Shown here one piece after another: positions 1,054-7,578 of a stretch of DNA of 64,000 bases. The notes under the pieces are model-generated. The model was not told where the DNA came from. It made no database searches and was given only the letters and a program-made list of their open reading frames with translations. A program made the position numbers and the translations under genes. The DNA is taken from positions 589,001-653,000 of the forward strand of contig NZ_CP097329.1 of NCBI RefSeq assembly GCF_030323025.1, in the 5' to 3' direction. Every line of letters starts with the position of its first letter. Within the stretch, counting starts at the first letter, position 1. This stretch comes from Pseudanabaena mucicola str. Chao 1806. GTDB taxonomy: Bacteria; Cyanobacteriota; Cyanobacteriia; Pseudanabaenales; Pseudanabaenaceae.

Positions 1054-4000
1054 ATTTCCGACTACCTTTACCCCGCAAGGGGACGGAAACTAAAGATTTA
1101 ATAACGTCTCTAGCAATGCTTTTTGAAGAAATTTCCGACTACCTTTACCCCGCAAGGGGACGGAAACTCGCCCCATTGACGTGCTGCTGTTCGCCAATCA
1201 ATATTTCCGACTACCTTTACCCCGCAAGGGGACGGAAACGAGTCTGCTGGTGTAGTCAACCCCGTAACAGAAACGCTGATTTCCGACTACCTTTACCCCG
1301 CAAGGGGACGGAAACATTACCACATGATCGCGCTATTAGGAACACAAAAAAAATTTCCGACTACCTTTACCCCGCAAGGGGACGGAAACAGCTTGAATAT
1401 CATGGCAACCGATACGGATACCCCAATCAAAATTTCCGACTACCTTTACCCCGCAAGGGGACGGAAACACCATATTGCACTGACAAGACAAAACGGGGTG
1501 CTGAGATTTCCGACTACCTTTACCCCGCAAGGGGACGGAAACAGTTGCCCAGTGTAGCTAAGTTTGAAATTGGTTGAGTATTTCCGACTACCTTTACCCC
1601 GCAAGGGGACGGAAACTACTAATTAACAGTTTGATTTATGACCGAGGCACTTCAAATATGACATTTCCGACTACCTTTACCCCGCAAGGGGACGGAAACT
1701 TTTTCCTGTCTTCAAGCTTAGCCCTCAAGCGTTGACTTGATTTCCGACTACCTTTACCCCGCAAGGGGACGGAAACGATATTGACCGTCACCATAATCGC
1801 CAATATCTACAAGGTCAAATTTCCGACTACCTTTACCCCGCAAGGGGACGGAAACCCCTGACAAGGTAGAAAATAGTTTAGTGTAGGAATTAATTTCCGA
1901 CTACCTTTACCCCGCAAGGGGACGGAAACTGATAGTCATCATTCCATTGAGGTGGGAGAGGCAGTCATTTCCGACTACCTTTACCCCGCAAGGGGACGGA
2001 AACCCCTGCAAGTGGTATCCAAGTTGGTGATATCAGTTCTGTTATTTCCGACTACCTTTACCCCGCAAGGGGACGGAAACAACTGGACTTTCGGCATGGA
2101 CTTCATCTTCGCTTACAATTTCCGACTACCTTTACCCCGCAAGGGGACGGAAACGAATACATCTCGCGCCGTGAGTTCGCAACTCTTGAGATTTCCGACT
2201 ACCTTTACCCCGCAAGGGGACGGAAACTTGATACTGGATGATGCGATAGGATGAGGAGACTTTATTTCCGACTACCTTTACCCCGCAAGGGGACGGAAAC
2301 TACCAACAGATTCATTGAAGTCATCAGCACAATAAAATTTCCGACTACCTTTACCCCGCAAGGGGACGGAAACCTAAATAGAATTTGAACAAAGAGATAA
2401 AAATCACTCCATTTCCGACTACCTTTACCCCGCAAGGGGACGGAAACCTTTCTATCACCAATACAGCGAGTATGCAGTTGGTATTTCCGACTACCTTTAC
2501 CCCGCAAGGGGACGGAAACAGTGACTTCTGTGCGTGTGCGAGTAGCGCGAGTTGTATTTCCGACTACCTTTACCCCGCAAGGGGACGGAAACCAGACCAT
2601 GGGGAAAAAATATCGAAACTTACCCGCGAATTTCCGACTACCTTTACCCCGCAAGGGGACGGAAACAAGGGAATGGGTAGAGTTTTTCACCCCACTACTG
2701 CCAATTTCCGACTACCTTTACCCCGCAAGGGGACGGAAACTGCCAAAACTCATCAAATCAACCCACAGAGCATTTTTTACCGAATTTCCGACTACCTTTA
2801 CCCCGCAAGGGGACGGAAACCAAGCATCAAAGCCATCGTTATAGCCCCAACGGACTTGTATTTCCGACTACCTTTACCCCGCAAGGGGACGGAAACAGAC
2901 TTTGCGACATCAGAAATAGTCTTGACTACCACTATTTCCGACTACCTTTACCCCGCAAGGGGACGGAAACTGAGTGGATGCCATACCTAGGTGAGAAGCT
3001 TCGCTATTATTATTTCCGACTACCTTTACCCCGCAAGGGGACGGAAACGTAGAAGCCGTCCACAGTCCGATATGTGTGACTGCGAATTTCCGACTACCTT
3101 TACCCCGCAAGGGGACGGAAACCGAACCATTCTTTGGCGGTGGCGCGGTACTCTATGCCAAGGATTTCCGACTACCTTTACCCCGCAAGGGGACGGAAAC
3201 CATTCTGTAAGCCGTGAACGCCCATGGTAGTAAAGCTGACGACATTTCCGACTACCTTTACCCCGCAAGGGGACGGAAACACCAGCAACATGGGTAAATC
3301 GCGCCTCTAGGTTGCCAGAAATTTCCGACTACCTTTACCCCGCAAGGGGACGGAAACCCCAAGTTTCGATCATCACGTACCACATTGCTTTGCTGATTTC
3401 CGACTACCTTTACCCCGCAAGGGGACGGAAACCATCTTTAGACTCTTCAGTAAAAAGTTTTGACAATTCAATTTCCGACTACCTTTACCCCGCAAGGGGA
3501 CGGAAACGAAGATGGTAAAGCTTGAGGACTAGAGATTTTGATGTTGCCATTTCCGACTACCTTTACCCCGCAAGGGGACGGAAACCGTCTAGGAGGCGAA
3601 TTATTGATCGGTGAAACCGCAGTAAGATTTCCGACTACCTTTACCCCGCAAGGGGACGGAAACCCAAGAACGCCTGAAGGAAATTCTGTCATAGGATTGT
3701 GAAAATTTCCGACTACCTTTACCCCGCAAGGGGACGGAAACTTATTTGACTTGGATTTTGAGATTATTGCAGGCGAATTTCCGACTACCTTTACCCCGCA
3801 AGGGGACGGAAACTTCTAATACTTCTTCTTTGCTGTTGTAGAAATAGATATTTCCGACTACCTTTACCCCGCAAGGGGACGGAAACAAGCGATCGCGGAG
3901 ATCGACAAGCACATGGAGGAAAATTTCCGACTACCTTTACCCCGCAAGGGGACGGAAACATCTATGGCTAGATGGAAAGCCCTTTATAAAAAACATATTT

Positions 4001-5412
4001 CCGACTACCTTTACCCCGCAAGGGGACGGAAACCTAAGAGACCTAATAGCACTTTCAATACTATTAATATAATGATTTCCGACTACCTTTACCCCGCAAG
4101 GGGACGGAAACCATGTCGGAGTTAAGTTCAAGGGCGAGTTGATTGATCCTCCGAATTTCCGACTACCTTTACCCCGCAAGGGGACGGAAACGAACCAAGA
4201 CAAATAAATAAGAAGTGATTAAGACAATAAAATTTCCGACTACCTTTACCCCGCAAGGGGACGGAAACGGATACCATGGTCACCAGAGATATAACCTCTA
4301 ACGACAATTTCCGACTACCTTTACCCCGCAAGGGGACGGAAACTATTTAAAGTGGATTCAGGGATCTCTAGCACATCTGATTTCCGACTACCTTTACCCC
4401 GCAAGGGGACGGAAACCAACGCACAGCACGGCGAAAGCCCCTAGTTGAAGGCTCATTTCCGACTACCTTTACCCCGCAAGGGGACGGAAACCTGAAAATA
4501 TGGATTCAAGATCCTAAATGCTTGCCCGCAAATTTCCGACTACCTTTACCCCGCAAGGGGACGGAAACTACTTAATCCCGAAAAGCAAAAGCTTGAGAGA
4601 GAACTACAAAATTTCCGACTACCTTTACCCCGCAAGGGGACGGAAACATACCAAGGCAGTGCAGGAAATTGTTAAACGGGATGAATTTCCGACTACCTTT
4701 ACCCCGCAAGGGGACGGAAACGTAGCTCTGTGGGGATTGGCTCAGGTATCTCAAATATCATTTCCGACTACCTTTACCCCGCAAGGGGACGGAAACGATA
4801 AATCTATAGGCTCGGTGGCTAAAACTAATTCCGCCTTATTTCCGACTACCTTTACCCCGCAAGGGGACGGAAACTACGTTCCTTTTGTAAATAATGCTCA
4901 ATCAACCGCAAACCAATATAGGATTTCCGACTACCTTTACCCCGCAAGGGGACGGAAACTCCGCGTTTTTGGATGTCTTTTAGTTGATGGCTGAGAATTT
5001 CCGACTACCTTTACCCCGCAAGGGGACGGAAACGGCTTTCTAGTAACTCTAAGTCAGAACCGCGCAGTAGGTCGATTTCCGACTACCTTTACCCCGCAAG
5101 GGGACGGAAACCTGCTTCGGTAATAACTTTGGTGAAAGCGCGTCCAGAAATTTCCGACTACCTTTACCCCGCAAGGGGACGGAAACTCCCCTTTATTCTC
5201 TTACAAACATCATCGGCGCATCAAATTTCCGACTACCTTTACCCCGCAAGGGGACGGAAACCTTTAGCCAAGAGTAGTATGTTTGCAGTTGACCGTCAAT
5301 TTCCGACTACCTTTACCCCGCAAGGGGACGGAAACATCGCTATTATTAAAGCCAGATATCCAAGCGCTGCGACCCATTTCCGACTACCTTTACCCCGCAA
5401 GGGGACGGAAAC
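1054..5412 (+). CRISPR. CRISPR array, 58 repeats of 37 bp and 57 spacers
   Basis: The 37-bp repeat begins ATTTCCGACTACCTTTA and ends CCCCGCAAGGGGACGGAAAC. I located 58 copies (first 1054-1090, last 5376-5412) and saw no variant among them, including the last one. Spacers are 35-48 bp, most 36-42. CCCC-GCAA-GGGG forms a short stem with a GNRA tetraloop, which is a suitable site for Cas6. Cleavage 3' of the stem would leave an 8-nt handle ACGGAAAC, assuming the usual geometry. The array reads away from cas1-cas2. Spacer-length variation suits type I-D or III systems, but the effector genes are not in the window. Open frames across the array translate the repeat and are not genes. Confidence 0.99.
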
Positions 5413-5461
5413 ACTCTGACGAAGGTTGGGGAATTTCCTGATAAATAGAGGAGAATCAACC

Positions 5462-5874: not shown

Positions 5875-5898
5875 TTTACCCCGCAAGGGGACGGAAAC
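5875..5898 (+). repeat. Detached partial CRISPR repeat
   Basis: These are the last 24 nt of the array repeat (TTTACC then CCGCAAGGGGACGGAAAC), matching without mismatch. It lies 462 bp beyond the last full repeat, with petJ in between and in the same orientation. The first 13 nt of the repeat are not recognisable. It is probably a remnant of a formerly longer array or a recombination scar. Confidence 0.85.
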
Positions 5899-6003
5899 TG
5901 TCGATCAAGGAAAAAGGCAAAAGTAGAAAGTCAAAAATTGATAGCAGCACAAAGAAACAAACCAAAATCTATCCTAAATTTCCCCTTTTTCTCCGATAAG
6001 GGG

Positions 6004-6157
6004 GACGAAAACATCTATGCTAGACTTGCTAGGCTCATCGCCCAAATTCAAACCATACCCATGACTAAAGGAGAAACCGAACCCACAAGAGAACATTCGA
6101 TTTGACTATGAAATTGTAGTCGATCCCTACGATGCAGCAGAAAGAGCAATGGGTTAG
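6004..6157 (+). pseudogene. Possible remnant of a CcbP-like calcium-binding protein gene
   Basis: Two short frames follow one another: one reads ENIYARLARLIAQ and ends in TGA at about 6105, and the other reads FDYEIVVDPYDAAERAMG before a TAG. The second resembles the start of small acidic cyanobacterial calcium-binding (CcbP-type) proteins, which normally continue for about 70 more residues. The first piece may be unrelated. This is recognition from memory of a short motif, so it is tentative. Confidence 0.35.
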
Positions 6158-6285: not shown

Positions 6286-6441
6286 CTAAATAGAAGCAAA
6301 AATCTTTAAAAACAGGCGTGATCGCCCAAAAAAGAAGTTGAAGTATTAGACATGACCTTAGCAAAAGATTGTGAAAGCAATATGTATATGGATTATGGAT
6401 TTTAGATCCAGCAATCAATAGGTAAAATAAACAAAACGCAA

Positions 6442-7578
6442 ATGTCACACTCAAAAACATCAGCGATCGCCAACTGGACAGATGATATCGAAATCGTCAG
6501 CATCACTCTGACCTTAAGAGCGATCGCCGACATTGAATTATCTCACAACTACACCACCGCACTCCATGCATGGTTTCTCCATCAAGTCCGCGACAGCGAT
6601 CCACAACTTTCTGCATATCTCCATGACAAACAATCCGAAAAAGCCTTTGCTATATCTCCACTCAATGGCAACCTTAAACCCATAGTCAACTCATTCCTTG
6701 CTAAAGTAGATAGTACCTATACTTGGACAATATCAGCCCTATCCGAGTCTCTATGCACATGGTTACAGACTTGGTTCATTAATCATCCAAAGACAATTAA
6801 CCTCTACAAAGGAAGCTTTGCGATCGAGCAGATTCGCATTAATCAACCACCTACAACCTACAATAATCTCTGGTCATCTTCATTAAATCTAGATCCCAGA
6901 TTTACACTCGCTTTCCTAACCCCTACTTGCTTTCGCAGCAAAAATCACCATTTACCCTTACCGATTCCCGCCAATATTTTCCATAGTTATCTCCGTCGTT
7001 GGAATGACTTTGCTCCCGAAGCCTTTCCTCAAGAGGAATTTTTAGCATGGATTGAAAAGGTGGTTTATATAACTAACTACGAACTTAACTGCACTAAAGT
7101 TGCTGTTGCCAAACAGGGCTATGTGACTGGTTTTACAGGTACTGTCGAATTTGCGATCGATCTCAAAACTTCCCGTAATTCTGATTTTGAAAAGTTGCTC
7201 TCAGCATTAATTAAACTTGCTAATTATTGCGGTACAGGACATAAAACCACCTTTGGATTAGGACAAACGAGACTAATTAGGAAAGATGAGGTTGGGAACT
7301 GGAAAAACGAAAAACAATCAATAGTAGTAACTCCAATTCAAGAGCATTTAATTAAGAGAATCGCAGAGCTAACGGAGCTATTTCTCCAAACAAAAAAAAG
7401 GCAAGGCGGCGATCGCGCTCAAAACACCGCTACTATCTGGGCAACCATCTTAGCCCGTCGCGAATTGGGCGAAAGCTTGACAGATATCGCGATCGACCTC
7501 GACTTACCATACGAAACAGCCAAAGGTTATGTCAAACGCGCCCGTAAAACCTTAGATAATATTAAGTCAGTTCCATAA
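6442..7578 (+). CDS. cas6: CRISPR pre-crRNA endoribonuclease Cas6 with C-terminal helix-turn-helix
   Basis: This is a 378-residue RAMP-fold protein. Residues 261-278 (NYCGTGHKTTFGLGQTRL) form the glycine-rich loop that closes the second ferredoxin-like domain of Cas6. His42 or His47 in the first long helix is the likely catalytic residue. Cas6 cuts the array transcript within each repeat to make crRNAs. After the Cas6 fold, residues 325-372 add a segment with the pattern ARRELGESLTDIAIDLDLPY followed by ETAKGYVKRARKTL, which looks like a sigma-region-4/LuxR-type helix-turn-helix. Typical Cas6 proteins stop near residue 280-300. The gene stands alone, 1 kb after the array, in the same direction. 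The ATG at 6442 gives a normal N terminus. Confidence 0.85.
   Translation: MSHSKTSAIANWTDDIEIVSITLTLRAIADIELSHNYTTALHAWFLHQVRDSDPQLSAYLHDKQSEKAFAISPLNGNLKPIVNSFLAKVDSTYTWTISALSESLCTWLQTWFINHPKTINLYKGSFAIEQIRINQPPTTYNNLWSSSLNLDPRFTLAFLTPTCFRSKNHHLPLPIPANIFHSYLRRWNDFAPEAFPQEEFLAWIEKVVYITNYELNCTKVAVAKQGYVTGFTGTVEFAIDLKTSRNSDFEKLLSALIKLANYCGTGHKTTFGLGQTRLIRKDEVGNWKNEKQSIVVTPIQEHLIKRIAELTELFLQTKKRQGGDRAQNTATIWATILARRELGESLTDIAIDLDLPYETAKGYVKRARKTLDNIKSVP

Follow-up and report, generated by a model that had tools for sequence, protein, structure and literature searches.

The CRISPR locus of the window

The window is a stretch of 64,000 nucleotides from Pseudanabaena mucicola str. Chao 1806 (contig NZ_CP097329.1, positions 589,001 to 653,000), and it opens inside a CRISPR locus. 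The features of this locus are as follows, with coordinates counted from the first letter of the window:

1-433, + strand: 3' part of cas1, the gene start lying upstream of the window (profile match)
497-775, + strand: cas2 (profile match)
1055-5413, + strand: CRISPR array of 58 repeats ATTTCCGACTACCTTTACCCCGCAAGGGGACGGAAAC, with a CCCC-N4-GGGG palindrome in the repeat
5876-5898, + strand: solitary repeat copy past the array end, between petJ and cas6
5980-6012, + strand: degenerate repeat-like element TTCCCC...GGGGGACGAAAAC, between petJ and cas6
6442-7578, + strand: cas6-HTH gene, 378 aa plus stop (open reading frame and profile matches)
6499-6786, + strand: Cas6 N-terminal domain PF19308, residues 20-115 (Pfam)
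6907-7269, + strand: Cas6 C-terminal RAMP domain PF10040, residues 156-276 (Pfam)
7231-7266, + strand: glycine-rich loop GTGHKTTFGLGQ (residues 264-275), which hardly varies within the clade
7291-7575, + strand: C-terminal tail, residues 284-378, a predicted four-helix domain
7477-7566, + strand: predicted helix-turn-helix (HTH) proper, residues 346-375, with helix 346-352, a turn and recognition helix 357-375

The gene order in the window's genome (locus L035) is III-D proteins, a Csx1-type CARF-HEPN protein, Cas1, Cas2, the 58-repeat array, a gene that we take to be petJ (it was named by eye) and cas6-HTH. The region upstream of the window matches TIGR03984 (Csx19) with 112 bits against a cut-off of 35 and TIGR03986 with 370 bits, and the Cas7_IIId and Cas5_IIId profiles with E-values of 1e-144 and 2e-22, respectively. 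With Csx19 and fused III-D Cas7/Cas5 RAMP proteins in the locus, the system is, judged by these profiles, of type III-D (III-Dv-like). The solitary repeat and the degenerate element past the array end give the impression of an array whose end was interrupted by the insertion of petJ and other DNA.

A Cas6 protein with a C-terminal helix-turn-helix

By its matches to PF10040 (80.3 bits against a cut-off of 25, residues 156-276), TIGR01877 (99 bits against a cut-off of 58.65) and PF19308, the open reading frame at 6442-7578 is assigned to Cas6. An initial annotation had placed the glycine-rich loop at residues 261-278; GTGHKTTFGLGQ lies inside that span, and about 100 residues follow it. Cutting of pre-crRNA by a member of the same clade, Cas6-2a, was reported on the basis of knock-out and complementation (PMC3575380).

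The same annotation saw in the tail an HTH of the LuxR/sigma-4 type, and this reading is supported by profiles and a model, with which the top fold matches agree. Sigma70_r4_2 (PF08281) matches residues 336-371 of the window's tail with an E-value of 2.3e-4 and 21.2 bits, which is under the Pfam gathering score of 25.7 bits, and is found at E <= 0.01 in 15 of 16 diverse tail relatives (best 2.7e-7); two tails of the same set match the GerE/LuxR family. The PADLOC profile PDLC01151 matches residues 289-371 with an E-value of 5e-23, so the resemblance to an HTH is not due to chance. Tail identity ranges from 39 to 73%, and R339, E341, G343, S345, L346, A350, L353, Y357, T359, Y363 and A367 are invariant. 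Disorder, which had been named as an outcome that would speak against an HTH, was not predicted: the AF2 model of the tail alone (built with four Pseudanabaena relatives) has a mean pLDDT of 83.6 and a pTM of 0.71, with four helices at residues 298-317, 324-341, 346-352 and 357-375. The full-length model of five Pseudanabaena sequences has a pLDDT of 50 and was left out of docking and surface arguments. In Foldseek searches E. coli SigmaE region 4 on -35 DNA ranks first (E 0.2) and RslA-bound SigL region 4, TraR and RcsB are the other top matches; TraR and RcsB superimpose with an rmsd of 1.0-1.4 over about 42 residues, and no Foldseek E-value falls below 0.2. VIA Z-scores against sigma region 4 are 6-7 over 50-60 residues, values that unrelated helical folds also reach.

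Sequence and model together support the view that residues ~298-375 form a sigma-region-4/LuxR-type HTH, and the family and fold matches put sigma region 4 first and LuxR second. A nuclease and an HTH thus appear to be joined in one protein, and DNA binding by the tail is predicted from the HTH type. The predicted helix arrangement and the motif of the tail resemble those of ECF sigma region 4 (SigmaE, SigL) and of the LuxR/TraR/RcsB HTH. Unlike ECF sigma factors, the window's protein has no sigma region 2, carries the tail on an RNase and scores under the Pfam gathering cut-off. The fusion is not new, since the description of PDLC01151, which lists two HTHs, an N-terminal xre and a C-terminal Sigma70_ECF, states that the latter is often fused to Cas6, i.e. 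it had already been noticed by profile curators. The N-terminal XRE domain is absent from the window's protein, which matches only profile positions 246-328.

Distribution of the fusion

The tail profile and the Cas6 core were searched for in 386 genomes of the phylum. A Cas6 core score above 190 bits was obtained at about 49 loci, and nearly all of their frames are 354-434 aa long and include the tail; the exceptions are a gene interrupted by an internal stop and another split at the end of a record. The next scores, at 89 bits or less, belong to frames of about 250-330 aa that have no tail, in agreement with the statement of the initial annotation that little normally follows the loop in Cas6. 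The tail is a fixed mark of one clean Cas6 clade and is present wherever the frame is intact. The clade is spread through many cyanobacterial families, and some of its members are on plasmid records, namely slr7068 (Cas6-2a) of Synechocystis PCC 6803 and copies of Nostoc, Anabaena and Phormidium. The survey gave no convincing family of free tails; fusion to Cas6 is the only context in which the tail was found. Viral contigs contained no relative, and phage records gave only a distant partial Cas6 match in which the tail is absent.

Candidate stand-alone tail frames in L037, L038, L039, L041, L042 and L053 were rejected as 3'-end fragments of decayed cas6 genes, and a short tail frame in L018/L040 is a gene split by the origin of the record. 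Two of the decayed fragments, L038:5356-5535 (- strand) and L039:4407-4637 (+ strand), are 3' ends of cas6-HTH located directly upstream of the leaders of orphan arrays elsewhere in the genome, which suggests a lost cas6-leader-array unit. The fragment at L053:4629-4934 (- strand) is about 2.5 kb from a Cas12k-like frame with a MerR-type neighbour and its own array, a neighbourhood that, judged by eye only, is presumably a V-K CAST.

A repeat-like palindrome in the cas6 promoters of relatives

The regions upstream of cas6-HTH genes were searched for conserved dyads, and the first pass retrieved the 3' half of the CRISPR repeat. When the arrays were masked, TCCCC-N4-GGGGA was the top palindrome of an unbiased dyad search, with 8 loci as compared to at most 3 in 20 shuffles. 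This is the palindrome of the CRISPR repeat itself. The cas6-HTH genes that carry it belong to the Nostocaceae and to one further family; in all, 20 of about 45 loci have it, 53-72 nt upstream of the start codon. A TAAAAT, TATAAT, TAGAAT or TACAAT box follows 10-11 nt after GGGGA (28 sites in all). The box pattern was fixed only at the T, the A and the last T, and the letters left free are A in 20, 26 and 24 of the 28 sites. In 19 of the 20 loci, 25-34 nt separate the end of the box from the ATG. With a -10-like box at this distance, the palindrome covers the -35 position of the likely cas6 promoter.

The loops of the palindrome vary (three genomes with TCAC in their arrays have TCCT, TTCT and ATCA at this site) while the stem is constant, which argues for selection acting on the stem. 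A caveat is that the stem was also the criterion by which the sites were collected; only the masked dyad search was free of this choice. A conserved and highly specific promoter palindrome is present in many members of the family. We regard it as an operator candidate, and found no description of it in the available literature, a body of text that omits key papers on Cas6 of Synechocystis and Anabaena.

Palindrome and box occur together in L087, L088, L090, L092, L093, L097, L099-L104, L106 and L108-L110, and further in L113, L115, L127, L128, L157, L163, L168, L174, L175 and L178. L096 and L085 (Synechocystis) have a variant spacing that is longer by about one helical turn. The palindrome was at first taken for a hairpin in the 5' UTR, an interpretation that was dropped once the -10-like box was spotted right after it.

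The palindrome might also act at the level of RNA. If the repeat-like hairpin is transcribed, by read-through from an array or from an upstream promoter, Cas6 could bind or cut its own message, and the HTH would have another role. The element retains the repeat stem together with the GAAA of the repeat, which is also conserved at the palindrome sites, so recognition at the RNA level is possible; in several loci the array runs straight into cas6, and the Synechocystis element GATTTCC-GAAA-GGGGATC can pair as RNA via G-U pairs. However, the -10-like box stands at a fixed 10-11 nt from the palindrome and 25-34 nt before the ATG, a position from which a local transcript would begin after the hairpin. 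Moreover, most sites have no array repeat upstream: a canonical repeat is missing within 3 kb upstream at 13 of the 20 palindrome loci, and repeats are still found upstream at seven, six of them within about 75 nt. We consider such feedback through the message unlikely.

Specificity of the palindrome

When 60 genomes of the Nostocaceae-like family were searched for the palindrome and box pattern, it was found in cas6-HTH promoters, in arrays and at a few unrelated places. All six loci reached in these genomes by the motif alone belong to cas6-HTH, and the box precedes the ATG by 22-30 nt. The TAAAAT version gave 11 matches in 292 genomes of the phylum, i.e. nine cas6-HTH sites (one of which adjoins a truncated copy), one array repeat and one unrelated place, and the reversed pattern gave none in the same genomes. 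A looser pattern was found at about 5 of 475 other open reading frames in the same loci. None of 20 tail-less cas6 genes has the palindrome, a weak control as many of them are inside operons.

Mapped on the Cas6 tree, the operator requires three changes as compared to 15.6 in shuffles, which indicates an old, inherited element that some genera have lost or replaced. The operator is missing from more than half of the cas6-HTH loci, including all those of Pseudanabaena. Several operator-free loci retain recognition-helix letters identical to those of operator-bearing loci, and apart from the diverged helix of Pseudanabaena these letters do not separate the two groups.

One has to consider that another protein may be the ligand of the palindrome. 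Proteins of the TIGR03985 family, named as CRISPR-associated, are found beside III-D loci:

L085:24549-25991: TIGR03985 protein with WYL/WCX domains
L087:15899-17413: TIGR03985 protein with WYL/WCX domains
L088:6288-7712: TIGR03985 protein with WYL/WCX domains

Because of their WYL/WCX domains they look like transcription regulators of these loci. A regulator of this or another kind could bind the palindrome, or else the palindrome could be the remnant of an old terminal repeat at the -35 position; the tail would then aid RNA binding, contact with RNA polymerase or stability. Sigma region 4 touches the beta flap of RNA polymerase, which fits a tail that contacts the polymerase. On the other hand, at least one operator-bearing genome (G039) has no TIGR03985 match, many genomes with TIGR03985 have no Cas6-HTH, and the stem is retained while the loops change. 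There is perhaps some chance that one of these explanations is right, but we think it a low one.

The promoter of cas6 in the window

Two elements were considered upstream of the window's gene:

6396-6410, + strand: weak and doubtful inverted repeat TGGAT-TTTAG-ATCCA, separated by 12 nt from the -10 box that follows
6423-6428, + strand: TAAAAT, candidate -10 box of cas6, with the ATG 13 nt further on

TCCCC-N4-GGGGA is absent before the -10 box in the window's cas6 promoter as well as in those of other Pseudanabaena. The inverted repeat was rejected as an operator and is not counted, since some 5-5 inverted repeat is found at the same place in 26% of control promoters and L002 does not retain TGGAT-N5-ATCCA. 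In Pseudanabaena the recognition helix (TAKGYVKRAR, TVRKYAQAAR) differs from the common TVKTYxKLAR, and such divergence would suit an altered site. The correlation between helix and site is incomplete, however, as the common helix is kept in operator-free loci of other families.

The initial annotation had proposed that the protein may bind DNA, for example its own promoter or that of the array, and in this way autoregulate the supply of crRNA. As regards its own promoter, the proposal receives indirect support from the relatives, where the palindrome covers the -35 position of cas6-HTH promoters and is found genome-wide almost only there and in arrays, but the absence of the palindrome leaves autoregulation of the window's own cas6 unsupported.

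A model of autoregulation and its relation to known systems

Little is known about how the supply of Cas6 and crRNA is balanced in type III systems. We propose that in cas6-HTH loci the RAMP part would cut pre-crRNA at the CCCC-N4-GGGG stem, as reported for Cas6-2a on CRISPR2, while the HTH tail would bind DNA. In lineages that have it, the target would be the palindrome in the cas6 promoter; binding there would block contact with the -35 position and repress cas6, and the amount of Cas6 would be matched to need. Autoregulation through the tail is plausible in the palindrome-bearing lineages. For the model as a whole, i.e. a III-D Cas6 with a fixed HTH that binds a repeat-like palindrome and represses its own promoter, we would put the chances slightly below even. 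The operator is absent in Pseudanabaena, which means that the tail there would use another site or has drifted. Several observations count against the model: the palindrome resembles the terminal repeat of an array that formerly ended at this place, the three changes counted on the tree fit inheritance from few events, and the build-up of precursors after deletion of cas6-2a is explained by the loss of cutting alone.

The closest comparison is Cas6-2a of Synechocystis sp. PCC 6803 (Slr7068, WP_011153737), which is 40% identical to residues 17-375 of the window's protein, tail included, and whose gene adjoins a III-Dv operon with Csx19, Cas1 and Cas2. Its deletion leads to abundant CRISPR2 precursors that are not cut below 200 nt, a defect cured by complementation, so that Cas6-2a is required for the maturation of CRISPR2 crRNA (PMC3575380), and it is absent from the purified III-Dv complex (PMC11026444). 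The main texts of both papers contain no mention of the tail as an HTH or helix-turn-helix. The palindrome upstream of cas6-2a is a variant that contains G-U pairs, and about 24 nt separate it from a -10-like box.

As the palindrome is also in the repeats, it is possible to think of the array itself as the target of the HTH. The tail would then bind the palindrome in the DNA of the repeats and coat or mark the array, and the nuclease would be placed at the site of transcription. The CCCC-N4-GGGG palindrome is present in the repeats of the associated arrays, including the 58 repeats in the window, and Cbp1 of the Sulfolobales sets the precedent of an HTH protein tied to CRISPR repeat DNA (PMC10883916), a tie to repeats that Cas6-HTH would share. 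The presence of the palindrome in repeats proves nothing, however, as it is required anyway for the RNA stem that is cut by Cas6. Besides, Cbp1, a stand-alone archaeal protein, has three HTH domains and lacks a nuclease, and binding to repeat DNA was shown for Cbp1 but is hypothetical for Cas6-HTH. Binding of this kind seems rather improbable to us.

An extension of the autoregulation model is that Cas6-HTH reads the repeat palindrome twice, as RNA through the RAMP fold to give crRNA, and as DNA through the HTH, at a repeat-derived operator across the -35 element of its own promoter and possibly in the array. Free repeat RNA would pull the protein off the promoter and lift the repression, i.e. 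one protein would act as a homeostat. We consider this unlikely. AcrIF24 is described as one polypeptide that unites a CRISPR-related activity with regulation of the operon that encodes it (PMC9638941); unlike the crRNA nuclease Cas6-HTH, it is a phage inhibitor (anti-CRISPR).

If the autoregulation model is true, it would explain what the fusion is for; the comment in the profile library is the only earlier mention of this fusion that we found. With a nuclease, a domain of a DNA-binding type and a promoter palindrome at hand, the question of balance can be addressed directly by experiment in Anabaena or Nostoc and, in a variant form, in Synechocystis 6803, where Cas6-2a has already been cloned and expressed.

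Leaders of the arrays

Binding to the array promoter, the other target proposed in the initial annotation, found no backing: no operator is common to array leaders and cas6 upstream regions beyond chance, except in three loci in which both regions are the same stretch. Leaders of several families share, above chance, a motif (ACCTTGAAAA or CCTTGACAA) that lies about 60-120 nt upstream of the first repeat, with examples in the window (about 900-1054), L103, L111, L119, L124 and L085. It is possibly a promoter or an integration element. A second type of leader, with a pair of direct repeats, is found in L086, L087, L093, L094, L099, L126 and L129; it contains, for instance, GACCTATGGCAAAT twice in L126 and GACCCCC(C)GCGAAA twice in L087, and often begins with TTCGTTGACC.
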